Shown here in pieces: positions 13,976 through 33,041 of a stretch of 36,647 nt of DNA. Source of the DNA: Dyella sp. EPa41 (GTDB taxonomy: Bacteria; Pseudomonadota; Gammaproteobacteria; Xanthomonadales; Rhodanobacteraceae); the NCBI RefSeq assembly GCF_016586165.1, contig NZ_BCPR01000046.1:1-36647 (forward strand). Reading direction: 5' to 3'. The notes under the pieces are model-generated. The model worked only from the letters and a program-made list of their open reading frames with translations, made no database searches and was not told the origin of the DNA. Every line of letters starts with the position of its first letter. Position 1 is the first letter of the stretch. The position numbers and the translations under genes are program-made.

Positions 13976-15145
13976 ATGGCAAAGAAAGCGGCATCGGAGC
14001 GGTTGGGGCTGGGGACGCGTGCGATTCACGCCGGGCAAACGCCTGATCCCTCGACGGGTGCCATCATGGTGCCCATCTACGCCACGTCCACGTATGTTCA
14101 GGCCAGCCCGGGGGAGCACCTGGGGTACGAGTATTCTCGGACGCAAAACCCTACTCGAATGGCCTATGAACGCTGCATAGCCGACCTGGAAGGGGGCCAG
14201 GCGGGTTTCGCCTTTGCTTCTGGACTTGCCGCCGCAAGCACGGTGTTGGACCTGCTGGACAGCGGCAGCCACGTGATCGCTATGGACGACCTGTACGGTG
14301 GTACCTACCGCCTGTTCGAGCGTGTACGACGCCGGTCGGCGGGCCTCGATTTCAGCTTCATCGATTTGAACGATACCGGGGCCCTCAGGGCTGCAATCAG
14401 GCCAAACACCCGCATGATCTGGGCGGAGACGCCCACCAACCCCATGCTCAAGCTGGTCGATCTCGCCAAGCTTGGCGCATTTGCCAAGCAGCACGGCTTG
14501 ACGCTAGTGGTGGACAGCACTTTCTGCTCGCCAATGTTGCAGCGTCCGCTGGAGTTTGGCGCGGACATCGTGCTGCATTCCGCGACCAAGTATCTCAATG
14601 GCCACTCGGACATGGTGGGCGGCGTTGTCGTCGTCAGCCAGGAGTCCGGGCTGGCCGACCAGATGGCCTTTCTACAGAATTCGGTCGGTGCCGTTGGAGG
14701 GCCCTTTGACTCATTTCTGGCCATGCGCGGGCTGAAGACGCTGCATCTGCGCATGCGTGCGCACTGCGAAAACGCGATGGAAATCGCGAAATGGCTGGAA
14801 AAGCATCCGGCCATCGAGAAGGTGATTTATCCAGGTCTAAAGAGCCACACGCAACATCAATTGGCCAAAAGGCAGATGGACGGTTTCGGCGGCATTATCA
14901 CCATTGAGGTCAAGGGGGGGCTCAAGAAGGCGCGCCGCGTGCTTGAGCGTTGCCGGATTTTTGCCTTGGCCGAGTCGCTCGGTGGCGTGGAAAGCCTCAT
15001 TGAGCACCCGGCGATCATGACGCACGCCTCCGTGCCGGCGGCAAACAGGAAGCGCCTGGGCATAAGCGATGGCCTGATCCGCCTGTCCGTGGGGGTGGAG
15101 AACCCTGCTGATTTGCTTTCCGAGCTGGCCGGGGCGCTTGCGTGA
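13976..15145 (+). CDS. metB: Cystathionine gamma-lyase / gamma-synthase (Cys/Met PLP enzyme)
   Basis: This 389-residue fold-type I PLP enzyme has YEYSRTQNPTRMAYERCIADLEGG (48-73), ASGLAAAS, YGGTYRLFERV, AETPTNPMLKLVD and the PLP lysine Lys205 in HSATKYLNGHSD. It ends with SLGGVESLIEHPAIMTHAS and GLIRLSVGVENPADL. Gamma-lyase and gamma-synthase cannot be told apart safely by eye. The cystathionine beta-synthase at 4101 favours the lyase (reverse transsulfuration to cysteine). In xanthomonads this gene, called metB, borders the variable LPS locus, and the same holds here: wzm starts 43 bases downstream on the same strand, so readthrough into the LPS genes is possible. Confidence 0.92.
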   Translation: MAKKAASERLGLGTRAIHAGQTPDPSTGAIMVPIYATSTYVQASPGEHLGYEYSRTQNPTRMAYERCIADLEGGQAGFAFASGLAAASTVLDLLDSGSHVIAMDDLYGGTYRLFERVRRRSAGLDFSFIDLNDTGALRAAIRPNTRMIWAETPTNPMLKLVDLAKLGAFAKQHGLTLVVDSTFCSPMLQRPLEFGADIVLHSATKYLNGHSDMVGGVVVVSQESGLADQMAFLQNSVGAVGGPFDSFLAMRGLKTLHLRMRAHCENAMEIAKWLEKHPAIEKVIYPGLKSHTQHQLAKRQMDGFGGIITIEVKGGLKKARRVLERCRIFALAESLGGVESLIEHPAIMTHASVPAANRKRLGISDGLIRLSVGVENPADLLSELAGALA

Positions 15146-15188
15146 TCAAAGTTGGAGAGCAGCAACGGGTCGAGGGAGCGAATCAACA

Positions 15189-16034
15189 ATGACTTCAGGC
15201 ACCATTGGCGGCAGACGGGCCCAATGGAAGGGGTGGCTGTTGGCGCCATTTTCATTCCTGACTACATACAACTCGTTGACGATCGAACTGGCGAAGCGTG
15301 ATGTGCTGGGCCGCTATCGCGGAGCCAGCTTCGGTCTCCTGTGGTCTCTCATCAGCCCCTTTCTCATGCTGATGGTCTACACCTTCGCCTTTGGAAATAT
15401 CTACAAGGGGAGGTGGCAAGAGGCTGCGGATCGGCATGACAGCTTCGCCATCATTCTTTTCATCGGGTTGATCGTGCACGGCTATTTTGCCGAGTGCCTG
15501 AATCGCTCACCGTTGCTGGTTACCAGCAACGTAAACTTCGTGAAGAGGGTCGTCTTCCCACTCGAGATTCTTCCGTGGCCGATGATTCTTTCCGCGCTTT
15601 TCCACATGGCCATGAACATGGTTGTGTTCATCGTGCTTCGATTGGTCATGGACCATGAGTTTTCCTGGACCATCGTTTTCTTGCCGGCCGTCGTTGCACC
15701 GCTCGTCGTGCTCACCGCTGGACTGGCATGGTTCTTCGCTGCACTCGGAGTCTACTTTCGTGACATCGGCCAAGTGACCGGCGTGATGTCCATGGCGGCA
15801 TTGTTCCTTTCGTCCGCCATGATTCCCATGTCGAGCCTGCCCCCCGCCTATCAGGTATTTTTTAACCTGAATCCCCTAACGTTCATCATCAATCAGGCAC
15901 GCGCTGTCGCGCTCTGGGGCGAAATGCCCAACTGGTTGGGCCTGTTTGCCTATTTTTGCGCGGCAATGACCTTTGCATATGCGGGCTATGGCTGGTTCCG
16001 CGCTACCAGGCGGGGGTTTGCCGATGTCCTCTGA
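15189..16034 (+). CDS. wzm: O-antigen ABC transporter permease
   Basis: This 281-residue ABC-2-type permease exports a finished polysaccharide across the inner membrane with Wzt. An N-terminal cytoplasmic part (RRAQWKGWLLAPFSFLTTYNSLTIELAKRDVLGRYRGASFG) is typical of this group. About six membrane segments follow (for example GLLWSLISPFLMLMVYTFAF, SFAIILFIGLIVHGYFAECL, VFLPAVVAPLVVLTAGLAWFF, VTGVMSMAALFLSSAMIP), and the last loop carries LPPAYQVFFNLNPLTFIINQAR. The ATG at 15189 has GAGGGAG 10 bases upstream; an open frame to 15138 overlaps metB and is unlikely. The stop lies 11 bases inside wzt, so the two subunits are coupled. A hand count of one row here (15841-15900) gives 47% GC, well below the flanks. 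Confidence 0.92.
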   Translation: MTSGTIGGRRAQWKGWLLAPFSFLTTYNSLTIELAKRDVLGRYRGASFGLLWSLISPFLMLMVYTFAFGNIYKGRWQEAADRHDSFAIILFIGLIVHGYFAECLNRSPLLVTSNVNFVKRVVFPLEILPWPMILSALFHMAMNMVVFIVLRLVMDHEFSWTIVFLPAVVAPLVVLTAGLAWFFAALGVYFRDIGQVTGVMSMAALFLSSAMIPMSSLPPAYQVFFNLNPLTFIINQARAVALWGEMPNWLGLFAYFCAAMTFAYAGYGWFRATRRGFADVL

Positions 16035-17400
16035 GAACATCGCGATTCGCGTCCATGGGGTAAGCAAGGTTTACCCCATTTACGATAGGCCGCATCATCG
16101 GCTGCTCCAGATGCTGTCCCGGCATGACAAAGGTCGGTGGTTCCGCGAATTCTGGGCTGTCCGAGACGTCGATTTTTCGGTGGCGCGCGGCGAGACATTG
16201 GGCATCGTTGGTCGTAACGGCTCGGGCAAGTCCACACTGCTCCAGATGATCTGCGGTACGTTGACACCATCGGCCGGCAGCATTGACGTTCGCGGCCGCG
16301 TGGCGGCGTTGCTCGAGCTGGGTTCGGGGTTCAATCCGGATTTCACCGGTCGAGAAAATGTCTTTCTGAACGGCACGGTGCTCGGGCTTACCCGGCCGGA
16401 GATCGAAGACCGGTTCGACGACATTGCAGCTTTTGCCGATATCGGCGAATTCATCGACCAGCCGGTGAAGAGCTATTCGAGCGGCATGTATGTCCGATTG
16501 GCATTTGCCGTCGCGATCAACGTCATGCCGGATATTCTCGTGGTCGATGAGGCATTATCCGTCGGTGACGAAGCTTTCCAGCGCAAATGCTTCGCCCGCA
16601 TCAACGCGATTCGCGAAAATGGGGCGACGATCCTTTTTGTTTCCCATTCGGCCAGTGTAGTCACGGAGCTCTGTAACAGGGCTGTCCTTCTCGATCACGG
16701 CGAGCTGCTAGGCATTGGTGCACCCAAGACCATCGTCTCCCGTTACCAAAAGATGCTTTACGCCCCGGCGGATCGCCTCGATGCCATTAGGTCTGAAATT
16801 CGAGCGGAGTGCGGTACACCTGAGGCAGCCGCCGAGCAGGGCCTGGCGCTCGCGGAAGCGCAGCAGGTGGTCTCGTCCGCTTCGGGCGTAGAGATGGAAG
16901 AGCAAGACGAACTTTTCTTTGACGAAGGCCTGGTTCCGCAAAGCACGCTTCACTACGAGTCCCTTGGCGCCGAGATTACGGACGTTCGGCTGGAAACGCC
17001 CGGCGGCAAGCGAGTCAACGTGCTCAAGGCGGACAGGGAGTACGTTTACGCTTACAACGTCGTGTTCCGGCAGTCGGCTTCGGCAGTACGTTTTGGCATG
17101 ATGATCAAGACGGTCACTGGCCTTGAGCTGGGCGGTGGCGCGTCTTCCACGTTGACCGACTCGATCGTCGTCGTGGAAGGGGGGCAGGAGTTCGAAGTGC
17201 GTTTCCGCTTCCGTGCGCATCTCGCCCCAGGTACCTATTTCCTGAATGCAGGCGTCGTGGGCAGGGTGGGCGAAGAAGAAGGGTATCTGGGTCGTTGCAT
17301 CGACGTTGCGATGTTCCGTGTCATGCACGATCCCGAGCGCCTTGCCACGGGCCTGATCAATTTTGACATCCAACCGTCGTTCCGCAGCGCGGAGGCATGA
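16024..17400 (+). CDS. wzt: O-antigen ABC transporter ATPase with C-terminal glycan-binding domain
   Basis: This 458-residue protein has the nucleotide-binding domain first: Walker A GRNGSGKST (near 64-72), the GSGFNPDFTGRENVFLNG segment typical of polysaccharide exporters, signature SYSSGMYVRL (150-159) and Walker B ILVVDEALSVGDE (171-183). After an acidic linker (about 250-305), residues about 313-450 form a Wzt C-terminal domain (ITDVRLETPGGKRVNVL, YAYNVVFRQSAS, GTYFLNAGVVGR). In characterised systems such as E. coli O9a and Raoultella O2a, a Wzt of this length binds the chemically capped non-reducing end of the O-antigen and so couples chain length to export. A fused methyltransferase and sulfotransferase-like domain in the next gene could supply such a cap; that is inference. 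Confidence 0.94.
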   Translation: MSSENIAIRVHGVSKVYPIYDRPHHRLLQMLSRHDKGRWFREFWAVRDVDFSVARGETLGIVGRNGSGKSTLLQMICGTLTPSAGSIDVRGRVAALLELGSGFNPDFTGRENVFLNGTVLGLTRPEIEDRFDDIAAFADIGEFIDQPVKSYSSGMYVRLAFAVAINVMPDILVVDEALSVGDEAFQRKCFARINAIRENGATILFVSHSASVVTELCNRAVLLDHGELLGIGAPKTIVSRYQKMLYAPADRLDAIRSEIRAECGTPEAAAEQGLALAEAQQVVSSASGVEMEEQDELFFDEGLVPQSTLHYESLGAEITDVRLETPGGKRVNVLKADREYVYAYNVVFRQSASAVRFGMMIKTVTGLELGGGASSTLTDSIVVVEGGQEFEVRFRFRAHLAPGTYFLNAGVVGRVGEEEGYLGRCIDVAMFRVMHDPERLATGLINFDIQPSFRSAEA

Positions 17401-20400
17401 GATTAGTCACCATGAGTGAGAATTCGCGTTCCCGGAAGAAGGGCATTTTCATACTCGGCATGCATCGTAGTGGCACTTCTGCCACGACGCGTGTCGTCAA
17501 TCTGCTTGGGGCTGATCTCGGCCCGGCCCTGGTCGACCCTGCGCCGGACAACAGAAAGGGATTCTGGGAACACTTCGAAGCCAACCAACTTGATGACCTT
17601 CTGCTCACCGAGCTTGGTCGTACATGGCACGACATTCGCGAGATGCCCCCCGGCTGGGAGAATTCGCCTGAAGCGAGGCAGGCCGTGGCAACATTTGCGC
17701 GCCTGATCGAGCGCGACTTTGGCGATAGCCCGGTCTGGGCCATCAAAGACCCGCGTATGTGCCGGCTCGCGCCGCTCTGGCTTGAAGCGGCCCAGCGTTG
17801 TGATGTCGACGTTTCGGTATTGCTGGTGGTGCGCAACCCGCTCGAAGTCGCGGAATCGCTGCGCGTGCGTGATCGCTGGGTGCCGGGACACTCGTACTTG
17901 CTTTGGATGCAGCATTTGCTGGAGGCCGAGCGGGCCACCCGTGATCGCCCCAGGAGCGTACTCCTATATGACCAGTTGCTCGAAGACTGGCGTGGATCCA
18001 TGGCGCGAGTAGCGGGTGAGCTGCAGGTCGACTGGCCGCGTGGCTTTGACGTCGCCGGTGCAGCTATCGACAGTTTTCTCGAAGTGGGCGAGCGGCATTT
18101 CAATGTTGCCGAGGGCGAGTCCTCTCACGCTGATGCCCCCCGATTGCCTGGATTGGTCGGGAAGCTCTACGAAATCTGTGGGCGCATCTCGCGCGGCCTG
18201 GGGGCGTGGCGCGAGGTAGACGCGCTGTACGACGAGTATCTCGCGGCCTCGCAGATTTATGCCGAGCCCATAATCGACCTGGTCTCCCGTAAGGCACGAG
18301 CCGAAGAGAGGGCAAAGCACGCGGAATCGATCGCCAATGCGGTGGATACGGTTGCGGGTTCCCTGCGGGATCAGATTGCGGAATCCCTGGAAGCCTCGAA
18401 CGCAGCGAGGGAAGCCGCGGATGCCGCGAGAGAAGCCGCGAGTTCTGCGAAGGAGGCCGCGAGTTCCGCGCAAGCACTCATCCTGAGCCAGGATGAAAAG
18501 CTCGAGAGGTTTAGTGCACTGATGGAGGCGGCCAGCACGCAGCTCGCCTCCCAAGGTGAGATGATCGACAGGCTGACGAATGCAGCCGAGGCAACCGGTG
18601 ATCTGCTTGACTCGGCCGACGTTCGCAGCGAAGCGCTTGAGAAGGCTCTTCTTGAGAGCGACAAATACATCGACGAGCTGCTGAATTCGACCAGTTGGCG
18701 CGTCACTGCGCCGCTGCGTTGGGCCCGCCAGAGGGTGCTGTCCAAGCACCTGCGGACGGCTTTGGGCCGCGGCGTCAAGGCGACCTATGACAGTCTTCCC
18801 CTCTCGGTGGACGCGAAGCTCGCGGTGAAGGGAGCGGTATTCCGTGGCCTATCACCCGTGCTGCGTAACACGAACGCATACAGGTCGTGGAAGAACTTCA
18901 AACGCAACCCGTCTGCCCGACCAGCGGCCGTCCAAAACATCGCGGACGGCACTCCGGTTGCCAAGGCTCCGCGGCCACGGGCACCTCTGCGCCCCGTCCC
19001 TTTCGACGGTCAGGGGCGGCTGGCGTTCTTCACCATTTGCTCGCGTAACTTCACGGCCTACGCGCGGACGCTAGCGGACTCGATACGCGCCCAACATCCG
19101 GACGCGGCCTTGTTCGTCGCCCTGTGCGACGAGCGCGGCGAGGACTACGACGTCAGCGGCTTGCCGTTCGAGCTGGTGGAACTGGACCAGCTGGACATCG
19201 CCGACTACCAGGAAATGGGGCGGCGGTACAACATCACGGAATTCAATACTGCAATAAAGCCTTTCGTATTTACGTACTTGTTCGAAAGGAGGGGCTTCGA
19301 GAAGGTCGTCTACCTCGACCCCGACATCCTCGTCGTCAGTCCCCTGGACGAAGTGACCAGCGCCCTTTCAGATGGGGCCGAGGCTGTGCTCACACCGCAC
19401 ATCCTGCATCCAGCGGAGAATACCGAGCGTACGGACATCCATATGCTTCAGCTCGGGATTTATAACCTGGGTTTCGTGGCGCTGCGCAACACCGCTCGAG
19501 TGCGCGAGATCGTCAAATGGTGGGAACGCAGGCTGGAATTCGAATGCGTGATTCGTCCTGAGGAAGGACTGTTCGTCGATCAAAAGTGGGCCGACCTTCT
19601 GCCGTCCTTCATCGAGAACACGCACATCCTCCACCATCCCGGCTACAACGTGGCGTACTGGAACCTGCCGCAACGACAGGTGACGCTGCGCGACGACACA
19701 TGGCTGGTGAATGGGCAACGCCTGCGATTCGTCCACTTCTCCGGTAACAAGCTGGAGGACCCGGCCGTGTTCTCGAGGCACAGTTGGCAGCTGAACGTGG
19801 ACAACATCGGTGACCTCAAGCTGTTGCTTGATGAGTACCGTAGCCGCGTCTTCGGCAACGATCATTTGGCGTATGCAAGGTTTCCCTATTCGTTTAGCTG
19901 GAATGGCGCGAGCGGCAAGAACGAACACACGCCGCAGGGAGCCACGCTCACGGCCCAACAGGCCGCCAACGAACCGATTCGGGGCGCGGAGTTGTCTGAT
20001 GCGGCGGGATCAGGTTATTCGGCCCGCCGATTTGCGAAGGATGTCATTCGTGACGCAGGAGGACCCGCCCAAGTGGCGAGGAAGGCGTGGCGCATCTATC
20101 GCGAGCGTGGCCTGAAAGGCGTGCGCGAGAAGATTTCGACGCTGTCGGTGACGTATTCAGACAATGTTGCGCGTGAAGAGGAATGGGTTCCCAAACCCCA
20201 TGCTTCCCATGTCGTCAAGCGTGCGATGTTTGTGGACTGGTCGACGCCGCGCCCCGATCAGGACGCGGGTTCGGTGACGACGTTCGGATTCCTGAAGATT
20301 TTTGTCGAACTCGGTTACGACGTGACGTTCATTCCGAGCGATTTGGAGTACCTGGGCAGATACAGCGATCGACTCGAGGCGCTGGGCATTCGCTGCCTCG

Positions 20401-22202
20401 ATCGCTCGACCGTGGGCAGCATGGCGTCGCACCTGCGGCAGCACGGTTGCGATTACGACTTGGTGATGGTTTTCCGAGCCCCCGTCGCGGCTCTCTACAT
20501 GTCCGATATCAAGCGCTACGCGCCCTATGCCAAGTTCGTTCTGGAGACGGCGGATCTCCACTACCTGCGTGACACCCGGCATGCCGAGCACGAAGATTCG
20601 GATGAACTTCGCGCGAAGGCGCTGGCGGCCAAGGAGTTTGAGCTCAACATCATCAACACGGCTGACGTGACCATCGTGGTCAGCCCCGTGGAGAAGGAAA
20701 TCCTGTCGCTGGATGCTCCTGAAGCCGACATCAGGTACTTGCCGGTGCCTCTGGTCACCTCCGGCAGGCCGGAGAAGATCGCTGGCTTCGATGAACGCGA
20801 GGGCATCGTGTTTGTGGGTGGGTATCGGCATCTTCCCAACGTCGACGCCATGGAGTATTTCTGCCGCGAGATTTGGCCGTTGGCCAGCGCGCGGCTGCCC
20901 GGCGTCGAGTTCCTGATCGTCGGTAGCTTCCCTCCCCCGGAGATCGTGGCCTTGGGAGACATTCCTGGCGTCAGGGTTGTCGGCTTCGTGGAGGATCTGG
21001 ATAGCCTCCTGTCGAAGGTACGCTTGTCTGTAGCGCCTCTTCGGTTCGGGGCGGGAGTCAAGGGCAAGGTAGCCACAGCGATGATCGCGGGCGTGCCCGT
21101 GGTGGGCACCGCCATTGCATTCGAGGGCATGGGCCTGGAAGCAGGTGTCGAGGTGCTGGAGGCGGATGTTGCCTCTGAATTCGCCGATCTGGTTGTGCGG
21201 GCCTATTCCGACCCAAATCTGTGGTCCGAGCTCTCGGTGAAGGGCATGCGGAAGGTCGACCTGTTGTACACGGAGGAGGCCGGAAAGGAACATCTCGGCC
21301 GCCTGCTAGAACAGACCGGCTTGCGCAACAACGACTTTGTTTTCGAGCGGATCGGATCCTATTCAACTTATGTGCGGCACCAGCAACGCACCGAGAACGA
21401 ACGGGCACGCCGCGCCCAACTTGAGCTGGACCTTATCCCTGCAGACGAGGAGAGCTTTCTCATCGATGGGTATTGCGTCAATTGCGACGATGCAAGCCAG
21501 TTCAGGGTGAGCTTCATGTACTCGTGTCAGACAACACCCGCTGGAAGGCCGATTCCCAACTGGCGCGAACACCTCGATTGCGTCAAGTGCAGCTTCATCA
21601 ATCGGGCCCGCGGCATCATGCAGCTGGTGAATCATGTCTTGCATGTGCCAAAGACCTCGCGCATCTACCTCACGGAGCGGACGACCCGGCAATACCAGTG
21701 GTTCGAAGCAAATTTCAACAACGTCACGGGCACCGAGTATTTTGGCCCCGAGTACGCGGGTGGAAGTTTTGTCAACGGTATCCGGCACGAGGACCTGACG
21801 TCGCTGACTTTCGCAGATGCTTCGTTTGATCTGATTGTTTCGCTGGACGTGCTGGAGCACGTGCCCGATGCCGAAGCGGCGTTTCGCGAGTGCTACCGGA
21901 CCCTTGCCCCTGGCGGTGTCCTGCTGTTCACCGCGCCCTTCTCCTCGAGCAGCCCGACGGAGATCACGCGAGCGATCCTGCGCGAGGATGGTGCGATCGA
22001 ACATCTGATGGAGCCGGAATACCATGGGAATCCTGTGGACCCTGAGAATGGTGCGCTGTGCTTCCGTTACTTCGGCTGGGACATGCTGGAGCAACTGAAG
22101 AGAGTCGGGTTCGAGGAGGCCGAGGCGATCTGTTATTGGTCGCGAGATCTCGCCTACCTGGGAGGGGAGCAGTTTGCTTTCGTGGCACGGAAGCGGCGGT
22201 GA
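17397..22202 (+). CDS. Giant multidomain O-antigen assembly protein: sulfotransferase-like, coiled coil, two glycosyltransferases, methyltransferase
   Basis: One uninterrupted 1601-residue frame. (1) Residues 20 to about 260: sulfotransferase-like P-loop, GMHRSGTSATT (21-31) and VVRNPLEVAES (144-154). (2) About 300-430: Ala/Glu-rich coiled coil with repeated AREAA/SAKEAASSA units, ending in STSWRVTAPLR (431-441), a motif common in bacterial glycosyltransferases. (3) About 541-835: GT-A type domain resembling GT8, FFTICSRNF with the metal motif in YLDPDI (Asp641, Asp643) and a late VHFSGNK. (4) About 943-1310: GT4-like GT-B domain, FVGGYRHLPNVDAMEYF and RFGAGVKGK (1216-1224). (5) About 1355-1601: a likely zinc site (Cys1360/1363, Cys1395/1398) then a class I SAM methyltransferase with LDVLEHVPDAEAAF and APGGVLLFTAP. 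The start overlaps the wzt stop (ATGA), but its GGAGG lies only one base away; ATG 17412 is the alternative. It is probably cytoplasmic and membrane-associated. Sugar and sulfate specificity are unknown. Confidence 0.88.
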   Translation: MRLVTMSENSRSRKKGIFILGMHRSGTSATTRVVNLLGADLGPALVDPAPDNRKGFWEHFEANQLDDLLLTELGRTWHDIREMPPGWENSPEARQAVATFARLIERDFGDSPVWAIKDPRMCRLAPLWLEAAQRCDVDVSVLLVVRNPLEVAESLRVRDRWVPGHSYLLWMQHLLEAERATRDRPRSVLLYDQLLEDWRGSMARVAGELQVDWPRGFDVAGAAIDSFLEVGERHFNVAEGESSHADAPRLPGLVGKLYEICGRISRGLGAWREVDALYDEYLAASQIYAEPIIDLVSRKARAEERAKHAESIANAVDTVAGSLRDQIAESLEASNAAREAADAAREAASSAKEAASSAQALILSQDEKLERFSALMEAASTQLASQGEMIDRLTNAAEATGDLLDSADVRSEALEKALLESDKYIDELLNSTSWRVTAPLRWARQRVLSKHLRTALGRGVKATYDSLPLSVDAKLAVKGAVFRGLSPVLRNTNAYRSWKNFKRNPSARPAAVQNIADGTPVAKAPRPRAPLRPVPFDGQGRLAFFTICSRNFTAYARTLADSIRAQHPDAALFVALCDERGEDYDVSGLPFELVELDQLDIADYQEMGRRYNITEFNTAIKPFVFTYLFERRGFEKVVYLDPDILVVSPLDEVTSALSDGAEAVLTPHILHPAENTERTDIHMLQLGIYNLGFVALRNTARVREIVKWWERRLEFECVIRPEEGLFVDQKWADLLPSFIENTHILHHPGYNVAYWNLPQRQVTLRDDTWLVNGQRLRFVHFSGNKLEDPAVFSRHSWQLNVDNIGDLKLLLDEYRSRVFGNDHLAYARFPYSFSWNGASGKNEHTPQGATLTAQQAANEPIRGAELSDAAGSGYSARRFAKDVIRDAGGPAQVARKAWRIYRERGLKGVREKISTLSVTYSDNVAREEEWVPKPHASHVVKRAMFVDWSTPRPDQDAGSVTTFGFLKIFVELGYDVTFIPSDLEYLGRYSDRLEALGIRCLDRSTVGSMASHLRQHGCDYDLVMVFRAPVAALYMSDIKRYAPYAKFVLETADLHYLRDTRHAEHEDSDELRAKALAAKEFELNIINTADVTIVVSPVEKEILSLDAPEADIRYLPVPLVTSGRPEKIAGFDEREGIVFVGGYRHLPNVDAMEYFCREIWPLASARLPGVEFLIVGSFPPPEIVALGDIPGVRVVGFVEDLDSLLSKVRLSVAPLRFGAGVKGKVATAMIAGVPVVGTAIAFEGMGLEAGVEVLEADVASEFADLVVRAYSDPNLWSELSVKGMRKVDLLYTEEAGKEHLGRLLEQTGLRNNDFVFERIGSYSTYVRHQQRTENERARRAQLELDLIPADEESFLIDGYCVNCDDASQFRVSFMYSCQTTPAGRPIPNWREHLDCVKCSFINRARGIMQLVNHVLHVPKTSRIYLTERTTRQYQWFEANFNNVTGTEYFGPEYAGGSFVNGIRHEDLTSLTFADASFDLIVSLDVLEHVPDAEAAFRECYRTLAPGGVLLFTAPFSSSSPTEITRAILREDGAIEHLMEPEYHGNPVDPENGALCFRYFGWDMLEQLKRVGFEEAEAICYWSRDLAYLGGEQFAFVARKRR

Positions 22203-22303: not shown

Positions 22304-23335
22304 ATGAGTGTGCTGGTTAGGGCTAGAGCACCGCTTAGACTCGGCTTGGCGGGTGGCGGAACGGACGTGTCGCCGTACTGCGACGTCTACGGCGGCCAGG
22401 TCATGAACGTGACCATCGACAAATATGCGTACGCGGTCGTCAGCGAGGGGCAGAAGGACCAGGTCAGATACCACGGCATTGACGTGGATATCTCCGAGTC
22501 CCATCACTGCGACGAGCTGGTGCTCGACGGTGGTATGCGCCTGGCGAAAGGCGTCTACGCGCGGATTGTCCGCGACTTTCTGGGCGGTCGCGGGCGGCCA
22601 GTCGACGTCAAGACGTTCTCCCATGCGCCCCCGGGGTCCGGCCTTGGTTCGTCGTCGACCATGGTGGTGGCGCTGGTGCAGGCGTTCACGGAGTTTTTCC
22701 AGCTTCCGCTCGGGGAATACGAAGTTGCCCATCTGGCCTATGAAATCGAGCGCAAGGACCTCGGACTGGCAGGCGGCAAGCAGGATCAATACGCGGCGGC
22801 ATTCGGCGGCTTCAATTTCATGGAGTTCTATGCCGACGAACGGGTGATCGTGAACCCGTTGAGGGTGAAGGACTGGGTCTGGGCTGAGCTCGAAGCCTCG
22901 CTGGTGCTGTATTTCACCGGGGTCTCAAGAGCCTCCGCGGATATTATCGACCAGCAGTCGCGGAACGTCGGCGAACAGAAGCAGTCGTCGATTGACGCGA
23001 TGCATCGGCTCAAGGCTGAGGCGGTGCAAATGAAGGAGTCCGTGCTCAGAGGTGACCTCATGGCCTTCGGAAAAACCCTGATGGCTGGATGGGAGGCAAA
23101 GAAGCAGACCGCAGATTGCATTACCAATCCGCTCATCGAATCGGTTGAGCAACTTGCATATGCCAACGGCGCCCGCGCCGCCAAGGTGTCAGGTGCGGGC
23201 GGCGGCGGTTTCATCATGTTCGTTTGCGACCCAGAGCGCCGAATTCCGCTCGTCCGCGCATTGACCAGCCAGGGCGGTAGCGTCATGGACTTCCACTTCA
23301 CCCAACACGGGGCCACATCATGGCGAATCAGCTAA
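22304..23335 (+). CDS. hddA: D-glycero-alpha-D-manno-heptose 7-phosphate kinase
   Basis: This 343-residue GHMP-family kinase phosphorylates C1 of D-glycero-D-manno-heptose 7-phosphate, giving the alpha-1,7-bisphosphate. Motifs are RAPLRLGLAGGGTDVSPYCD (8-27), the ATP-binding loop HAPPGSGLGSSSTM (107-120), RKDLGLAGGKQDQYAAAFGGF and the C-terminal KVSGAGGGGFIMF. The 'GGGTDVSPY' and 'GGKQDQYAAAFGG' segments separate HddA-type sugar kinases from homoserine or mevalonate kinases. A fucose/heptose kinase of related type is the main alternative, but the three following genes complete the GDP-heptose route. It overlaps gmhA by 16 bases. AGAG at 22291-22294 serves as a weak ribosome site. Confidence 0.9.
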   Translation: MSVLVRARAPLRLGLAGGGTDVSPYCDVYGGQVMNVTIDKYAYAVVSEGQKDQVRYHGIDVDISESHHCDELVLDGGMRLAKGVYARIVRDFLGGRGRPVDVKTFSHAPPGSGLGSSSTMVVALVQAFTEFFQLPLGEYEVAHLAYEIERKDLGLAGGKQDQYAAAFGGFNFMEFYADERVIVNPLRVKDWVWAELEASLVLYFTGVSRASADIIDQQSRNVGEQKQSSIDAMHRLKAEAVQMKESVLRGDLMAFGKTLMAGWEAKKQTADCITNPLIESVEQLAYANGARAAKVSGAGGGGFIMFVCDPERRIPLVRALTSQGGSVMDFHFTQHGATSWRIS

Positions 23336-23919
23336 ACGACCACATTGACTCCGAGTTCTCGAAGTCGATAGACCTTCTCAAGACCATGTCGATCGATGCG
23401 TCCCTTCGCGCGCAAATTGCCGAGGTGGTGGGAATATCGGTCAATGCGTTGAGGCAGGGGCACAAGCTGATGTTCGCCGGGAACGGTGGAAGCGCGGCGG
23501 ACGCCCAGCACTGGGCGGGCGAACTGGTCAGCCGCTTTTACTTCGACCGTCCGGGCCTTCCTGCCATAGCATTGACGACGGACACCAGTATCCTGACCGC
23601 CATTGGCAACGACTACGGCTACGACTACGTATTCGCCCGGCAAGTCGAGGCGATTGGCCAGCGGGGGGATGTGCTGTTCGCCATCTCCACGTCGGGCAAG
23701 TCGAAGAACATCCTGCGCGCCGTGCGCGCTGCCCGGGAACGCGGCGTCGTTTCCATAGGTTTCACGGGCGCCGGTGGCGGCGATATGGCGAACGAGTGTG
23801 ACCACTGCATACGCGTGCCGTCGGACGAGACTCCGAAAGTCCAGGAAGGGCACGAGTTCCTGGGACACCTGATCTGCGGGCTCATCGAGAGCGAGATGTT
23901 CGAACATGGCCGTGCCTGA
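23320..23919 (+). CDS. gmhA: Sedoheptulose 7-phosphate isomerase
   Basis: This 199-residue single SIS-domain enzyme turns sedoheptulose 7-phosphate into D-glycero-D-manno-heptose 7-phosphate, the first committed heptose step. Visible motifs are FAGNGGSAADAQHWAGELVSR (52-72), ALTTDTSILTAIGNDYGYDYVFARQVEA, ISTSGKSKNILRAV (122-135), and a late HEFLGHLICGLIE that carries the metal-binding His. Length is normal for GmhA. It lies inside the heptose cassette, overlapping hddA by 16 bases and hddC by 14 bases. Confidence 0.94.
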   Translation: MANQLNDHIDSEFSKSIDLLKTMSIDASLRAQIAEVVGISVNALRQGHKLMFAGNGGSAADAQHWAGELVSRFYFDRPGLPAIALTTDTSILTAIGNDYGYDYVFARQVEAIGQRGDVLFAISTSGKSKNILRAVRAARERGVVSIGFTGAGGGDMANECDHCIRVPSDETPKVQEGHEFLGHLICGLIESEMFEHGRA

Positions 23920-24613
23920 GGAAATCGTCGTCCTGGCAGGAGGGTTCGGAACCCGGCTGCGTGACGTGGTCAGCGATGTTCCCAAGCCGTTGGCCCCTGT
24001 ACGGGGGCGGCCGTTTCTCGCATACCTGCTGGACGCATTTGCCCAGCAGAAGCTCCGGCGTGTCATCTTCGCGACGGGTTACATGGGGGAAGTGCTGCCC
24101 GAGGCGCTCGGGCGTACCTGGCGAGGGATGGATCTGGTCTATGTGAGGGAGAGCGAGCCTCTCGGCACCGGCGGGGCCATCGCCCATGCGGCAGCTTCGA
24201 TCATGGGCGACGCGTTCTTTGTGGCGAACGGGGACACCTTTCTTTCCCTCGATTACGCGGCTTTCGCCCAATTCTCGGCAGCACATTCGGTCGAGATCGG
24301 CGTCGCCCTGGCAAATGTTCCCGACGTGGGGCGCTATGGTGCCGTCGAGATAGACGGTGCCCGCATCGAGCGTTTCAGGGAGAAGGGAGGCTCGGGTCCT
24401 GGGTTCATCAACGCGGGAACATATTATGTGCGGTGCGCTGCGTTGACGGCATTTCCGCCGGCGCGAAAATTCTCATTCGAGACGGACGTCCTCGCGACGA
24501 TGACCGGCTCGGGCCGGATGGCCGGATTTACGAGCACGCATGATTTCATCGATATCGGGGTGCCGGAAGACTATCGGCGGTCCCCTGTGTGCCTTGGTGT
24601 GGAAAGTGCCTGA
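23906..24613 (+). CDS. hddC: D-glycero-alpha-D-manno-heptose 1-phosphate guanylyltransferase
   Basis: This 235-residue nucleotidyltransferase activates heptose 1-phosphate with GTP to give GDP-D-glycero-alpha-D-manno-heptose. It has the N-terminal LAGGFGTRLRDVVSDVPKPLAPV (10-32), YVRESEPLGTGGAIAHA, FVANGDTFLSLDY (metal Asp), and FINAGTYYV, with the short length typical of HddC/RmlA-like proteins lacking a C-terminal domain. Specificity for heptose and GTP is inferred from the neighbours hddA, gmhA and gmhB. The alternative is a mannose or glucose 1-phosphate transferase. It overlaps gmhA by 14 bases and ends 6 bases before gmhB. Confidence 0.88.
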   Translation: MAVPEEIVVLAGGFGTRLRDVVSDVPKPLAPVRGRPFLAYLLDAFAQQKLRRVIFATGYMGEVLPEALGRTWRGMDLVYVRESEPLGTGGAIAHAAASIMGDAFFVANGDTFLSLDYAAFAQFSAAHSVEIGVALANVPDVGRYGAVEIDGARIERFREKGGSGPGFINAGTYYVRCAALTAFPPARKFSFETDVLATMTGSGRMAGFTSTHDFIDIGVPEDYRRSPVCLGVESA

Positions 24614-24619
24614 CCGGAT

Positions 24620-25174
24620 ATGACGGATGCACGCAAAAAGGCGCTTTTCCTAGATCGGGACGGTGTGATCAATGTCGACTACGGTTACGTCTGCAGCGCG
24701 GAGCGCACCGTATTCATCGACGGGATCTTTGATCTCTGTCGCGCTGCGGAGGCGCACGGGTTCATTATCGTCATCGTGACGAATCAGGCCGGAATCGCCA
24801 GGGGCTATTACTCCGAGGAGGACTTCCATGCGTACATGACATGGATGTCTGACGAGTTCGCGAAATGCGGAGTGAAACTGTCACGCGTCTACCATTGCCC
24901 GCACCATCCTTCCGAAGGCATCGGTCGATACCGGGTCGATTGCGATTGCCGCAAACCCATGCCGGGCATGATTCTGAGGGCTGCCGAAGACGAGGGGGTC
25001 GATCTCGCCAGGTCGATATTCATCGGCGACAAGATGTCCGACATGAAAGCCGGTCGGTCCGCAGGCGTCGGGAACCTGTGGCTTTACGGGCAGGACGATA
25101 GCGTCGACGGACGGGCCGACATCGTTCCCCTCCACACGTTGGAGCAGGGCCGCCAACTGCTGGAAAACCTGTGA
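24620..25174 (+). CDS. gmhB: D-glycero-D-manno-heptose 1,7-bisphosphate 7-phosphatase
   Basis: This 184-residue HAD-superfamily histidinol-phosphatase-like enzyme removes the 7-phosphate from heptose 1,7-bisphosphate. It shows the nucleophile motif FLDRDGVIN (Asp12, Asp14), VTNQAGIARGYY (53-64), a zinc site made by Cys93, His95, Cys108 and Cys110 (YHCPHHP and DCDCRKP), the Lys in RKPMPGM, and FIGDKMSDMKAGRSAG with the last Asp pair. All key residues are present. It is the last gene of the rightward LPS transcript. The hairpin at 25180-25206 follows directly. Confidence 0.94.
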   Translation: MTDARKKALFLDRDGVINVDYGYVCSAERTVFIDGIFDLCRAAEAHGFIIVIVTNQAGIARGYYSEEDFHAYMTWMSDEFAKCGVKLSRVYHCPHHPSEGIGRYRVDCDCRKPMPGMILRAAEDEGVDLARSIFIGDKMSDMKAGRSAGVGNLWLYGQDDSVDGRADIVPLHTLEQGRQLLENL

Positions 25175-25206: not shown

Positions 25207-25276
25207 AACGACTACCTCATGGTCTCGGGCAACTAGCAAATTTTGAATCCTTGCACTCCGCTTGAGGTGTGTCGGC

Positions 25277-26224
25277 TCAATTACCCAGTGCCTGTTCCAA
25301 CTGCGGCAGCAGCGTAAACAGGTCACCCACCAAGCCGATGTCGGCAATTTCGAAAATCGGCGCCTCGCCGTCCTTGTTGATTGCCACGATGGTGCCCGCG
25401 TCCTTGATGCCGGTGAGGTGCTGGATGGCGCCGGAAATGCCGATGGCCATGTAAAGCTCGGGGGCGATGATCTTGCCCGTCTGGCCCACCTGCAGGTCAC
25501 TCGGCACGTAGCCAGCGTCGACGGCGGCACGCGAGGCGCCCACGGCGGCGCCGATCTTGTCGGCGAACTTGAAGATGATGTCGAAGTTCTCCTTCGAGCC
25601 CACGCCGCGGCCACCCGAGACCACCTTGCTGGCGCTCTGCAGGTCAGGACGGTCGCTCTTGCCCGACTGCAGTTCGACGAAGCGGGTATGCGAGGGCAGG
25701 GCTACGTCCACCGTCAGGGCTTCGACCGGGGCGTTGTTGGCGCCCGTCGCCGCGGCAGGCCAGGAGGCCGTGCGGATGGTGGCGACGACGGTGGTGTTGG
25801 GATCGGCTTCGACCGTGATGATCGCGTTGCCGGCATAGATCGGGCGCTTGAACGTGTGGGCGCTTTCCACGCTCATCACGTCACTGACCTGGGCCACGCC
25901 GAGCAGGGCGGCCACGCGCGGCAGCACGTCCTTGCCGAACGTGGTCGACGGAGCGAACACGTGGCTGTAGCCGGTGGCGGCCTTGGCGATCTGCGGGGCC
26001 AGCACGGCGGCCAGCGGATGCGCGTTCTCGGCGCGGGCGACGGTGAGCACGCGGCTCACGCCTTCGATCTTGGCGGCGTCGGCGGCGATGGCGTCGACGT
26101 TGTCGGCCAGCACCAGCACGTCGATGGCTTCGGGCTTGATGGCCGCGGCGGCGCTCACGGCGCGCGCGGTGGAGGAGTTGAGCTTGCCGCCGAGGTGTTC
26201 GGCGACGACGAGGATCTTGGTCAT
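25277..26224 (-). CDS. etfA: Electron transfer flavoprotein, alpha subunit
   Basis: This 315-residue FAD-binding subunit of ETF takes electrons from acyl-CoA and other dehydrogenases and hands them to ETF:quinone oxidoreductase. It shows the C-terminal FAD domain signature [46 protein letters not shown], and [25 protein letters not shown]. The start has GAGGGAAC upstream on the minus strand. It is second in the etfBA pair (80-base gap with a hairpin). In xanthomonads this gene marks the far border of the variable LPS locus. Confidence 0.96.
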
Positions 26225-26269
26225 GGGTGTTCCCTCAGACGTGGGACAGGGAGGCTTTTATTGAAAAGT

Positions 26270-26287
26270 CCGGCCATGGACGGCCGG
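26270..26287 (-). promoter_or_regulatory. Hairpin between etfB and etfA
   Basis: CCGGCC (26270-26275) pairs with GGCCGG (26282-26287), loop of 6. On the minus strand it is followed by ACTTTTCAAT, so it could be a weak attenuator or 3' stabiliser between the two subunit genes. It has a T-run only four long. Confidence 0.4.
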
Positions 26288-26304
26288 GTTTTGATCAGGG
26301 ACGA

Positions 26305-27051
26305 TCACAAAAGCCCCTTCTGCTTCAGCGCCGCGACCAGTTCGGCCGCATCCTTCACCATTACGCCCTTGCTGCGCTTGGCCGGCGCGGTGTAGTGCGT
26401 GGTCTTGAGGTGGTCGTTGGCTTCGACGCCCAGCGAGCCGAACTCGATGGTGTCGATCGGCTTGGACTTGGCCTTCATGATGTCCGGCAGCTTGATGAAG
26501 CGCGGCTCGTTGAGGCGCAGGTCGGTGGTGATCACGGCCGGCAGTTCGGCTTCGATCACTTCCAGGCCGGCATCGACTTCGCGGGTCACCCTGGCCTTGC
26601 CGTCGGCGATCTCGACCTGGCTGGCGAAGGTGGCCTGCGGACGATCCCACAGCGCGGCCAGCATCTGGCCCGTCTGGTTGGCGTCGTCGTCGATGGCCTG
26701 CTTGCCGAGGATGACCAGGGCCGGCTGTTCCTTCTCGATCAGCTTCTGGAAGATGCGGGCGGCGGTGAGCGGCTGCACGGCGTCCGTGGTCACCACGTGG
26801 ATCGCGCGGTTGGCGCCCATGGCCAGGCCGTTGCGCAGGTGCGGGGTGAGGTCGGCAGGGCCGATACCCACGACCACCACTTCTTCGGCCACGCCCTTTT
26901 CGCGCAGGCGCAGGGCTTCTTCCAGGGCGATGTCGTCGAACGGGTTGGCGGAAAGCTTCACGCCATCCGTCACCACGCCGGTGCCATCGGGTTTCACCTG
27001 GATGCGGACGTTGTAGTCCACGACGCGCTTGTAGCCAACAAGAATCTTCAT
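26305..27051 (-). CDS. etfB: Electron transfer flavoprotein, beta subunit
   Basis: This 248-residue AMP-binding subunit of ETF begins MKILVGYKRVVDYNVRIQVKPDG and contains NPFDDIALEEALRLREKG, the AMP-site region VILGKQAIDDDANQTGQMLAALWD and EAELPAVITTDLRLNEPRFIKLPDIMKAKSKPID, the last being the family signature. The start at 27051 is chosen by family and by AAGGA in the minus-strand leader. The open frame to 27144 adds a non-homologous N-terminus. It lies upstream of etfA and probably has its own promoter in the AT-rich gap behind the glycosyltransferase gene. Confidence 0.96.
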   Translation of the reverse strand: MKILVGYKRVVDYNVRIQVKPDGTGVVTDGVKLSANPFDDIALEEALRLREKGVAEEVVVVGIGPADLTPHLRNGLAMGANRAIHVVTTDAVQPLTAARIFQKLIEKEQPALVILGKQAIDDDANQTGQMLAALWDRPQATFASQVEIADGKARVTREVDAGLEVIEAELPAVITTDLRLNEPRFIKLPDIMKAKSKPIDTIEFGSLGVEANDHLKTTHYTAPAKRSKGVMVKDAAELVAALKQKGLL

Positions 27052-27144: not shown

Positions 27145-29211
27145 CTAAAAACAGTCATTTAACCTATTCTTTGGGCATGTGGACAAGGTCGTCGGGGTGT
27201 CCGAAGCTCGGCCGTAAACGCTGGCGGCATCCGCCATGGTGAAGCCGGCCGACCATGTTGCCAGAGCGAAGATGCGTTCCACGGCGTGAGCCGTGGTGCC
27301 ATCGTTCTGGTCTACCTCGTGCCCGAACTCCCAGGGCGCCATGTGCGCGTCGAGTAGTGGGCGAAGCGCAGCGAGGCGGACCCAGAACATGCTTCCGGCG
27401 ACGAACTCGCTGGCGGGCGAGGGCTGAGAAAGGCCAAGCCTGGTGCAGAGCGCGCGAATGTTCGCTTCGTCGGCACCCCGGAAATGCTCCAGCGGCTGCG
27501 AGTGGCCCTCAGGCGCTACCAGCCCCAGGCGGGGATCGGTGGCGAAAGCCTCCAGGATGCGCGGGGCGCGGTCGCCGGCCAGGCTCTGGAGCAATTCGTG
27601 GCGCCACTGCGAGCCGTCCCCTCGATGCACCGATTGCTTGGTGTGCAGTTTGAGGACGGTGTCGACGCCTTCGTTGAGAAGCTGGTCGGCCACCTGCAGG
27701 AAAGGAAGCACATCACGACCGCGGTTTTCGAAGACATGGATTTCTGCGTCTACCCCGAGCCCCTTCAGTCGCGCCCGGACCTCGTGTTCGCGTTCGGGTG
27801 CCGTTGTGATCACGATTCGCCAGTTGAGCGCACTGTGGCTCAAGCTTGCGATCACGTCGTCGAGCACTTCCGCGTACCACGCATGCACGACGACACAAGG
27901 ACGTGTGGCAGTGTTTTCACGTGGTGGCAATAGTGCGGCACGGGTGGCATCCAACCAGGCATGCCCAAGGCGTATGTCAGGCTCCAGCACGGCACCTTCA
28001 GCCCATTCGTTCCACGCATTGATGAAGACCATCGGAGCGCGTGGCGAGCGCGTCTGGGCTACGGAAACAGCATGCCGCAGCCAGTCTCGATAGGTGCGTG
28101 GCGATGCATGGGCCAGCACGCGGCCGCGGCCGCTCCTACGGGGTTCGTTGTCCCAGCCCGGGTTGACGCCCGGATATAGCAAATAGCCAGGTGTGGCGGC
28201 GTTGGTGGCGTGACGCACGAGTTCGCGCCAGTCGAGCACGTCGCCGGCGAAGTCCGGATTGATAAGTTGCTGTTCGCCTGTGATTGTATTCAACGAGATG
28301 TTGTTCGGTGGGAACTCCACCGCTGCATCAAAGCCGATATTGGCCGGGTCGACACGATCGAAACTTTGTACATAGGCGAGGTGGATCTCGCCGATGCCGT
28401 TATCGCGGCACCATGCACGCCAGCGCGCTGCTGTCTCCTTCGGTGACGGCAGGAGACCGGGGCGATACACCAGCAGCATCGGCTTGCCGTCGACGCGCAA
28501 GTAGCGCGGATCCCTCAGGTAGACGGCGACATGCGCAATGAACGCGAGGTCGTCCTCCGCGCTGTGCTGCTGGCCAATCAGCACATCATCCGCGCGGCCG
28601 TCCCAGCGCCGCGACCAGTTTTCGTTCGCCCAGCACAGGCAGATGGGCAGGTCGAGATCAGCATTGACAAGCCATTGGCGCAACGGTGCCTCCAGCAGCG
28701 TCTTGCCAGCGAACCAGTAAAAGTAGGTGCAGAAAGCGCCGATGCCGTACTCGCGCGCGAGTTGCATCTGTTTGCGCATCACGTCCGGCTGGCGCAGGTC
28801 GTAGTAGCCCAATTCGCCGGGTAGCCTGGGTTGTGCATGACCCTCGTACTGCGGAAGTGCACGCGTCACATTCCGCCACTCGGTGAAGCCGGTGCCCCAC
28901 CATGTGTCGTTCTCTGGTATCGAGTGGAACTGTGGCAGATAGAAGGCAACCAATGTCGCCGGCAGCGGTGATGGCAGTGCCTCCTTGCGACGCGGCACAT
29001 GGCCGATGGCGTGCTCCACCGCGCGCTGCAGAGGGCGGCGTGACCTGTCGACTGGCGCCCGCCCGCGTGCCCCGGTAGGCACCATGCCGGCGTAGCGATC
29101 CAGAAAACGCTGCCTCCATCGGTCACGTGTCGCCACCGGCAAGGGCGTCAGGCGAAAGCCGGCGCGCAGCAGTTGGAAGACCTGGCGTTTGGCGAAATCG
29201 AAGAGCGGCAT
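27145..29211 (-). CDS. WbsX-type glycosyltransferase fused to an RgpF-like (rhamnan synthesis) domain
   Basis: This 688-residue protein (start MPLFDFAK) has two parts. Residues about 86-430 match the WbsX family: VAFYLPQFHSIPENDTWWGTGFTEWRNV (88-115), QPRLPGELGYYDLR, CTYFYWFAGKTLLE, CLCWANENWSRRWDG and the conserved FINAWNEWAEGAVLEPD (396-412). Residues about 438-688 match RgpF/rhamnan synthesis protein F: VVVHAWYAEVLDDVI, FENRGRDVLPFL (494-505), VLKLHTKQSVHRGDGSQWR. Both families occur in O-antigen and rhamnan loci, which fits the dTDP-rhamnose operon in this window. The specific linkage is unknown. The longer open frame to 29334 overlaps the preceding gene and is less likely. It sits 49 bases downstream of the GT2-GT4 gene, between it and etfB. 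Confidence 0.87.
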   Translation of the reverse strand: MPLFDFAKRQVFQLLRAGFRLTPLPVATRDRWRQRFLDRYAGMVPTGARGRAPVDRSRRPLQRAVEHAIGHVPRRKEALPSPLPATLVAFYLPQFHSIPENDTWWGTGFTEWRNVTRALPQYEGHAQPRLPGELGYYDLRQPDVMRKQMQLAREYGIGAFCTYFYWFAGKTLLEAPLRQWLVNADLDLPICLCWANENWSRRWDGRADDVLIGQQHSAEDDLAFIAHVAVYLRDPRYLRVDGKPMLLVYRPGLLPSPKETAARWRAWCRDNGIGEIHLAYVQSFDRVDPANIGFDAAVEFPPNNISLNTITGEQQLINPDFAGDVLDWRELVRHATNAATPGYLLYPGVNPGWDNEPRRSGRGRVLAHASPRTYRDWLRHAVSVAQTRSPRAPMVFINAWNEWAEGAVLEPDIRLGHAWLDATRAALLPPRENTATRPCVVVHAWYAEVLDDVIASLSHSALNWRIVITTAPEREHEVRARLKGLGVDAEIHVFENRGRDVLPFLQVADQLLNEGVDTVLKLHTKQSVHRGDGSQWRHELLQSLAGDRAPRILEAFATDPRLGLVAPEGHSQPLEHFRGADEANIRALCTRLGLSQPSPASEFVAGSMFWVRLAALRPLLDAHMAPWEFGHEVDQNDGTTAHAVERIFALATWSAGFTMADAASVYGRASDTPTTLSTCPKNRLNDCF

Positions 29212-29260
29212 ACACGTTATTCCGGTGGCCCGGGAATGGTCCGCATTGCGGCGGAGCGGG

Positions 29261-31270: not shown

Positions 31271-31357
31271 GGCGACGCTGCCGCGGAAACGTTGCAGCGC
31301 GTAATTCAGGCGTTTGAAGCGCCAGGTGAGTCGGGCGGACAGCGCAGAGTCCTCCCG

Positions 31358-32974: not shown

Positions 32975-33041
32975 GGCGTAACTCCAACTGGCTGCTGCGG
33001 CACGATTCCGTTCCCCCACGTATGGAAACGGGCAAACCGGC

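Follow-up and report, generated by a model that had tools for sequence, protein, structure and literature searches.

The window, that is, the whole stretch of DNA that was analysed (36,647 nucleotides of contig NZ_BCPR01000046.1 from Dyella sp. EPa41, assembly size 4.92 Mb), carries the ABC (ATP-binding cassette) transporter genes wzm and wzt and, directly behind them, a gene for a multidomain protein of 1601 residues whose N-terminal sulfotransferase (ST) domain is the main subject here. All features lie on the forward strand (+) unless marked otherwise. The ABC-2 membrane permease gene wzm (15138..16034; PF01061, E 4.3e-22) is followed by wzt (15973..17400), which encodes an ABC ATPase (ABC_tran, 1.8e-23) with a C-terminal glycan-binding domain, Wzt_C (residues 327-463, E 6.9e-27; about 16768-17397). 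The latter gene was listed from a TTG codon, and its real start may be located further downstream. The open reading frame (ORF) of the multidomain protein (17397..22202) starts with ATG and overlaps the end of wzt by 4 bp. It stays open over 1601 codons, just as an earlier note made from the sequence alone had stated; the four motifs quoted there (GMHRSGTS, YLDPD, RFGAGVKGK and LDVLEHVPDA) were all recovered in the translation. This is a genuine coding gene: other species carry homologues of its modules, about 32-47% identical, and a chance ORF or an annotation fusion was rejected for this reason. Among the five modules claimed in the note, the ST head, the coiled coil and a GT4-type glycosyltransferase (GT) were borne out, while the GT8-like module proved weak and the methyltransferase-like tail lacked its motif I. 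A search of genome contigs with the whole protein returned three loci, each aligned only across the stretch from GT4 to the early tail, and none of 141 plasmid records covered 80% of the query.

The ST head (residues 14-277, 17436..18227) is the proposed chain-terminating cap enzyme. When the head of the window protein was scanned alone, no Pfam match was obtained at 1e-3; below the curated cut-off only Sulfotransfer_1 was found (E 0.0028, 17.5 bits against a cut-off of 22). Sulfotransfer_3 was matched by 32 of 37 aligned related heads, and two of the 37 matched the nodulation protein NoeE, which we take to be a sugar sulfotransferase. Fifteen columns are invariant in these 37 heads: they include the P-loop GMHRSGTS (residues 21-28, 17457..17480; G21 and R24-S28), a putative 5'-phosphosulfate loop, the segment K117-D118-P119-R120, and both R146 and S154 (17832..17858), the putative 3'-phosphate site of 3'-phosphoadenosine 5'-phosphosulfate (PAPS). 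The assignment of the PAPS site rests on the spacing of an arginine and a serine eight positions further on, which presumably equals that of the cytosolic sulfotransferases (SULTs). The structure of residues 1-463 was predicted with AlphaFold2 from an alignment with 48 relatives from viral contigs. The head domain was predicted confidently (block means of the predicted local distance difference test, pLDDT, of 84-98 across residues 11-230), and in a fold search against the PDB all 26 matches with E <= 1e-3 were sulfotransferases, with modest TM-scores (TMt 0.33-0.49 for these first 26). The sulfotransferase fold proposed in the note for the N-terminal part thus withstood structure prediction, and the head is modelled as a sulfotransferase fold with conserved putative cofactor residues. 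Profile scans of the head gave no match to a WbdD-type methyltransferase-kinase.

The head runs on into a single predicted helix of 127 residues (271-397), which is followed by a second helix (410-430); together they form the coiled coil (residues 271-430, 18207..18686) that is the proposed ruler. The block pLDDT of the helix is 71-92 as far as residue 380 and 54-62 after it. Heptad periodicity is indicated by a hydrophobic period of 3.50 in residues 285-430, which was reached by none of 2000 shuffles. The GT8-like module behind it (residues 536-850, 19002..19946) is weak: PF01501 was matched by one of five aligned sequences and not by the window protein, and one PDB profile match was obtained, to the GT8 protein 3tzt (E 0.0042, weak); all five sequences share the DPD of YLDPD. 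The GT4-type module (residues 938-1306, 20208..21314) is a clear assignment by its profile and homologue matches (PF13692, E 2.3e-19; homologues at 38-45%), and it also matches TIGR03087 at 1.6e-33, below the cut-off of that model. The module order closest to that of the window protein was seen in a protein of 1660 residues in locus L034 (7759-12741, +; ST..GT8..GT4), in which no methyltransferase was found.

The tail is a cysteine-containing methyltransferase-like module (residues 1380-1599, 21534..22193) that matches Methyltransf_11 above the cut-off (3e-14) and keeps the conserved segments DVLEH, PGG and EYHGD. The glycine-rich motif I for S-adenosylmethionine (AdoMet) is absent from the window tail, which reads IYLTERTT there, and from all 12 aligned relatives; in this family it is replaced by E..T, and most members contain two CxxC pairs. 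Profile matches of the tail in the PDB are restricted to the stretch after motif I. A fold model of the tail (pLDDT 54.8, built from three sequences) was uninformative, and viral contigs scanned for the methyltransferase yielded 2, 0 and 0 loci. The module was found in five of 38 ST loci, window included. It probably serves as an accessory for internal or side modification, if it is active at all.

The slot behind wzt was surveyed in 92 loci. For this purpose, 157 genomes were searched for wzt loci of the same family (142 matched at 1e-50), and the set was composed of the window, 11 loci resembling the protein or nearby, and 80 loci chosen in descending order of Wzt score. Some second loci from a genome already represented were skipped. 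The limits for Wzt_C (1e-30 in the family, 1e-10 in the phylum sample described below) were set after the lists had been seen. An ST ORF was found in 37 of the 38 loci with Wzt_C E<1e-30 (window included) versus three of the 54 other loci (Fisher 5e-21, uncorrected for relatedness); the three are L082, which falls just under the line (Wzt_C E 6e-30), L093 and L126 (weak, about 8 kb off). Among the 39 listed ST proteins, which include the weak L093, 34 have their P-loop at most 139 bp from the wzt stop. The remaining ones are located 3.2-4.1 kb downstream of wzt (four) and at 7.9 kb (L093), and the non-adjacent ST in L050, L058, L069 and L070 still pairs with the same Wzt_C type. Loci of both kinds, with and without ST, occur within nine genera (g1, g4, g6, g13, g17, g18, g37, g40 and g42), and the genomes G013, G121 and G177 each hold one of each kind among the fetched loci.

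The head of the next gene was scanned in 53 loci without a clear ST; a further such locus, L119, had no usable gene. Matches (overlaps between families not sorted out) were to Methyltransf_11 (29), Methyltransf_25 (29), Methyltransf_24 (9), DUF4915 (6), GT99 (2), pyruvyltransferase (2) and acyltransferase (2). L051 encodes a WbdD homologue over residues 16-531 (PDB WbdD, E about 1e-45); a head 55% identical to it is found in L092 of G121, a genome that also has the ST-type locus L078, and L123 has the GT99 domain of WbbB. Because a WbdD homologue, methyltransferases and GT99 are found in it, the slot often holds known cap-class enzymes. Two further kinds of head were recorded there. DUF4915 heads follow wzt in six of the 53, including L079 (6615-8267, −) and L083 (3393-6476, +); in two of the six, the Wzt_C is related to that of the window. 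These heads are candidates for a further cap chemistry. Heads of the polysaccharide pyruvyl transferase type are located in L129 (5292-6641, +; confirmed by scan) and L130 (7101-8450, −) and perhaps add a pyruvyl cap.

The association was also determined in an evenly drawn sample of 299 genomes of the phylum, in which Wzt_C (PF14524) was found in 44 and ST in 35. Window-type Wzt_C (E<=1e-10) was present in ten genomes, all ten with ST, versus three of the 34 other Wzt_C genomes (one-sided Fisher 1.2e-7); when the family of the window was excluded, the figures were 8/8 versus 3/33 (one-sided Fisher 1.7e-6). The next genome under the limit, G407 (8.2e-4), gave no ST match. In eight of the ten genomes, ST is encoded no more than 14 kb away on one contig, and in G462 and G330 on another contig. 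In G379 and G291 it follows wzt immediately, in G238 at a distance of 0.7 kb, and in G380, G261 (opposite strand) and G244 it is not next to wzt, all with window-type Wzt_C. An ST-headed gene of the Rhodobacteraceae plasmid CP081099 has no annotated Wzt in 12.7 kb (incomplete gene table), and in the stretches examined around the ST relatives of viral contigs (69 loci) no match to Wzt was obtained at 1e-15.

Co-variation was measured by distance correlations in the 34 ST loci with all genes and in a core subset of 27 loci, with 2000 permutations. The ST distances correlate with those of Wzt_C at 0.77, of WztN at 0.67, of Wzm at 0.50 and of MetB at 0.14. With WztN, Wzm and MetB removed, the partial correlation of ST and Wzt_C was 0.55 (0/2000 permutations), and that of ST and Wzm given Wzt_C was −0.11; the 27-locus core gave 0.49 for ST and Wzt_C (0/2000) and 0.26 for ST and WztN given Wzt_C. 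In 18 of 39 ST proteins the coiled-coil region is followed by a tail of over 150 residues; these tails fall into seven clusters without a long match between them, the tail of the window protein being the lone member of its cluster. The pairing of wzt and ST is therefore kept when the GT part is exchanged.

Taken together, the results make it probable that the window protein is an all-in-one O-polysaccharide machine in which the GTs lengthen the chain, the coiled coil serves as ruler, and a terminal sulfate is added by the ST and read by Wzt_C. This scheme was drawn up because the protein has the layout of characterised systems with an ST as terminator. At the membrane, the lipid-linked chain would be lengthened by the GT8-like and GT4 modules; the coiled coil (about residues 271-430) would hold the N-terminal head away, so that only sufficiently long chains reach it; the PAPS-dependent head would add one terminal sulfate, by which growth is stopped; and Wzt_C of the adjoining ABC transporter would recognise the end once it is sulfated and allow the chain to be exported. 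The domains, the ST fold, the putative cofactor residues, the helix, the slot behind wzt, and the co-occurrence and co-variation of ST and Wzt_C are the observed base, from which we infer sulfate transfer, its terminal position, the ruler function and recognition by Wzt_C. As far as the available portions of the sources describe them, characterised systems carry the terminator distally on a coiled-coil ruler with the polymerase modules at the opposite end, and their Wzt binding module exports capped chains only (PMC11231755, PMC3482155). The order found here, ST and then coiled coil at the N terminus with the GTs behind, is the same as in the known terminators (PMC11231755, available portion). 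By this analogy the ST head, rather than the tail methyltransferase, is likely to be the chain-terminating cap enzyme.

Several observations weigh against a sulfate cap read by Wzt_C. The STs of L069 and L070 are short and have no coiled coil, and L079 and L083 combine a related Wzt_C (42% and 36%) and a DUF4915 head with no ST. In the phylum sample, 22 of the 35 ST genomes gave no PF14524 match; the ST family thus has other roles as well. For the ST-GT proteins of L034 and L043 (ST..GT8), no Wzt or Wzm was found in the 20 kb examined. The nearest-neighbour agreement with ST was identical (16/27) for Wzt_C, WztN and Wzm, and the ST correlation drops with physical distance (Wzt_C > WztN > Wzm > MetB). 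Since linkage alone predicts the same gradient, the Mantel test is only partly decisive, and linkage may explain part of the co-variation. Finally, the authors who described the O-antigen of Aeromonas salmonicida, whose gene cluster includes the ST-domain ORF19, saw no sulfate in it (PMC4483657, available portion); one sulfate per chain could be missed, which is an excuse and not a result. The linkage gradient, the ST-GT proteins away from Wzt and the many ST genomes without Wzt_C would all suit an ST that decorates internal repeat sugars and is connected with Wzt only through a shared exchanged cassette. Such a role is nevertheless regarded as unlikely: the non-adjacent STs (L050, L058, L069 and L070; G244, G261 and G380) keep the same Wzt_C type, which argues against linkage alone, ST and Wzt stay paired while the chain behind ST is swapped (18 tails in seven unlinked clusters), and a ruler between modifier and polymerase would make little sense for internal decoration.

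The earlier note had assigned the cap to the C-terminal methyltransferase, with Wzt_C reading the methylated end, and had treated the ST as an odd second modifier. Methylated chain ends are indeed a known Wzt signal (PMC3482155, available portion), and the tail matches methyltransferase families and retains the three segments named above. Motif I is, however, missing from it and from the 12 relatives, with PDB profile matches that start only after this motif; the module was found in five of the 38 ST loci, despite the Wzt_C type that these have in common; and it lies on the polymerase side rather than past the ruler. The tail was consequently rejected as the Wzt-read cap, and we hold this arrangement to be quite unlikely. 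The role left to the ST in the note is not supported by the survey either, in which the ST tracks the Wzt_C type and fills the slot held elsewhere by a WbdD homologue, methyltransferases or GT99. The head might conceivably also be an inactive scaffold or a kinase of the P-loop kind: the Pfam score of the window head lies below the cut-off, the TM-scores are low, and PFKFB3-type P-loop kinases enter the fold search from rank 33 (E 1.4e-3). Against this stand the 26 sulfotransferases that precede them at E<=1e-3, the invariant R146 and S154, and the two heads that match NoeE, so that this explanation is considered very improbable.

The wider claim is held with a little less assurance than the scheme for the window protein, the balance tipping towards a class of sulfate-capped O-polysaccharides across Pseudomonadota, in which chains would be terminated by ST plus coiled coil and a distinct Wzt_C subfamily would read the sulfate, the window protein being the most integrated form. 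If this is true, caps are interchangeable heads (methyl, methylphosphate, Kdo (3-deoxy-D-manno-oct-2-ulosonic acid), sulfate, perhaps pyruvyl and a DUF4915 activity) that are swapped together with a matching Wzt_C, and a predictive code from Wzt_C type to cap would result. Methyl, methylphosphate and Kdo are the Wzt-read caps characterised in the available portions of the literature; with sulfate, the export checkpoint would gain a charged chemistry that depends on PAPS, and surface-glycan length would become tied to sulfur metabolism. The joint change of heads and Wzt_C types at one chromosomal slot within nine genera constitutes a natural experiment for cap recognition, and a weak, odd-looking fusion becomes interpretable when a sulfate cap is assumed. 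New chemistries were reportedly predicted in a 2019 terminator census (Mann, Kimber and Whitfield). That census was outside the coverage of the literature search, so that priority is uncertain; within this coverage, and as far as the sources were available, the sole direct case recognised of an ST terminator or a Wzt-linked sulfated chain end was PMC4483657.

The genes of the locus are arranged in the order MetB/C-like enzyme, wzm, wzt with Wzt_C, the 1601-residue gene, HddA-, GmhA- and HddC-like genes, and a HAD (haloacid dehalogenase) phosphatase. The last four (22304..25174) were named from their best NCBIfam and Pfam matches, which are below the NCBIfam cut-offs, and their probable function is donor supply via the GDP-D-glycero-D-manno-heptose pathway. 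An rmlBACD set and a ManC-type gene are located upstream on the opposite strand. Going by these neighbouring genes alone, the likely candidates for the donor sugars are rhamnose, mannose-derived sugars and heptose. The ORF at 25262-26395 (377 residues) has no Pfam or NCBIfam match and is found at 52-75% identity in related loci. On the (−) strand, 27145-33035 encodes a WbsX+RgpF protein, a GT2+GT4 protein and a 681-residue protein without Pfam match; homologues about 51-82% identical in several loci of the same genus mark it as a constant block beside variable O-antigen genes. An adenosine 5'-phosphosulfate (APS) kinase is encoded in the source genome and in 11 of 14 control genomes, and its presence is for this reason permissive only. 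Three matches above the cut-off, two of them strong, were obtained in the genome itself (C78:17374-17817, C140:314-772 and C56:4723-5046), possibly a duplicated PAPS synthesis.

The architecture as such is already known, and it is the ST head that stands outside the characterised caps as given in the available sources. The features of the class of coiled-coil polymerase/terminator proteins are found in the window: a Wzt with a glycan-binding domain, and ST plus helix 271-397 on one side with the GT8-like and GT4 modules on the other. The build-and-cap layout proposed in the note, in which a single chain directly behind a glycan-binding Wzt unites ruler, two GT modules and end-modifying enzyme, is known experimentally in WbbB (O12) and ORF6 (Klebsiella O7). 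According to the available portion of PMC11231755, WbbB of Klebsiella/Raoultella O12 likewise combines an N-terminal terminator, a coiled coil and two GT modules with a Wzt bearing a carbohydrate-binding module (CBM), but its GT99 adds a Kdo cap, in place of which the window protein has the ST head, and a methyltransferase-like tail besides. ORF6, described in the same portion, also unites terminator, coiled coil and two GTs in one chain; it differs by its N-terminal methyltransferase-kinase, its methylphosphate cap and its GT2 modules, where the window protein has GT8-like and GT4 ones. WbdD of E. coli O9a shares the N-terminal end-modifier on a coiled-coil ruler and the CBM-bearing Wzt partner, and its homologue in L051 fills the same slot behind wzt in a related genome; WbdD itself consists of kinase and methyltransferase without GTs, and the window head shares no domain with it. 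ORF19 of the Aeromonas salmonicida wbsalmo cluster is an ST-domain gene after wzt and before wbbB, yet it is a separate gene of 216 residues (PMC4483657, available portion). Also similar are the ST-coiled-coil genes of, for example, L040, L041, L059 and L066, which occupy the same slot next to the same Wzt_C type and combine a helical region with a preceding homologous ST head (34-47% identity): these genes stand alone with 430-480 residues, whereas in the window GT8-like, GT4 and methyltransferase-like modules are fused behind the same arrangement.

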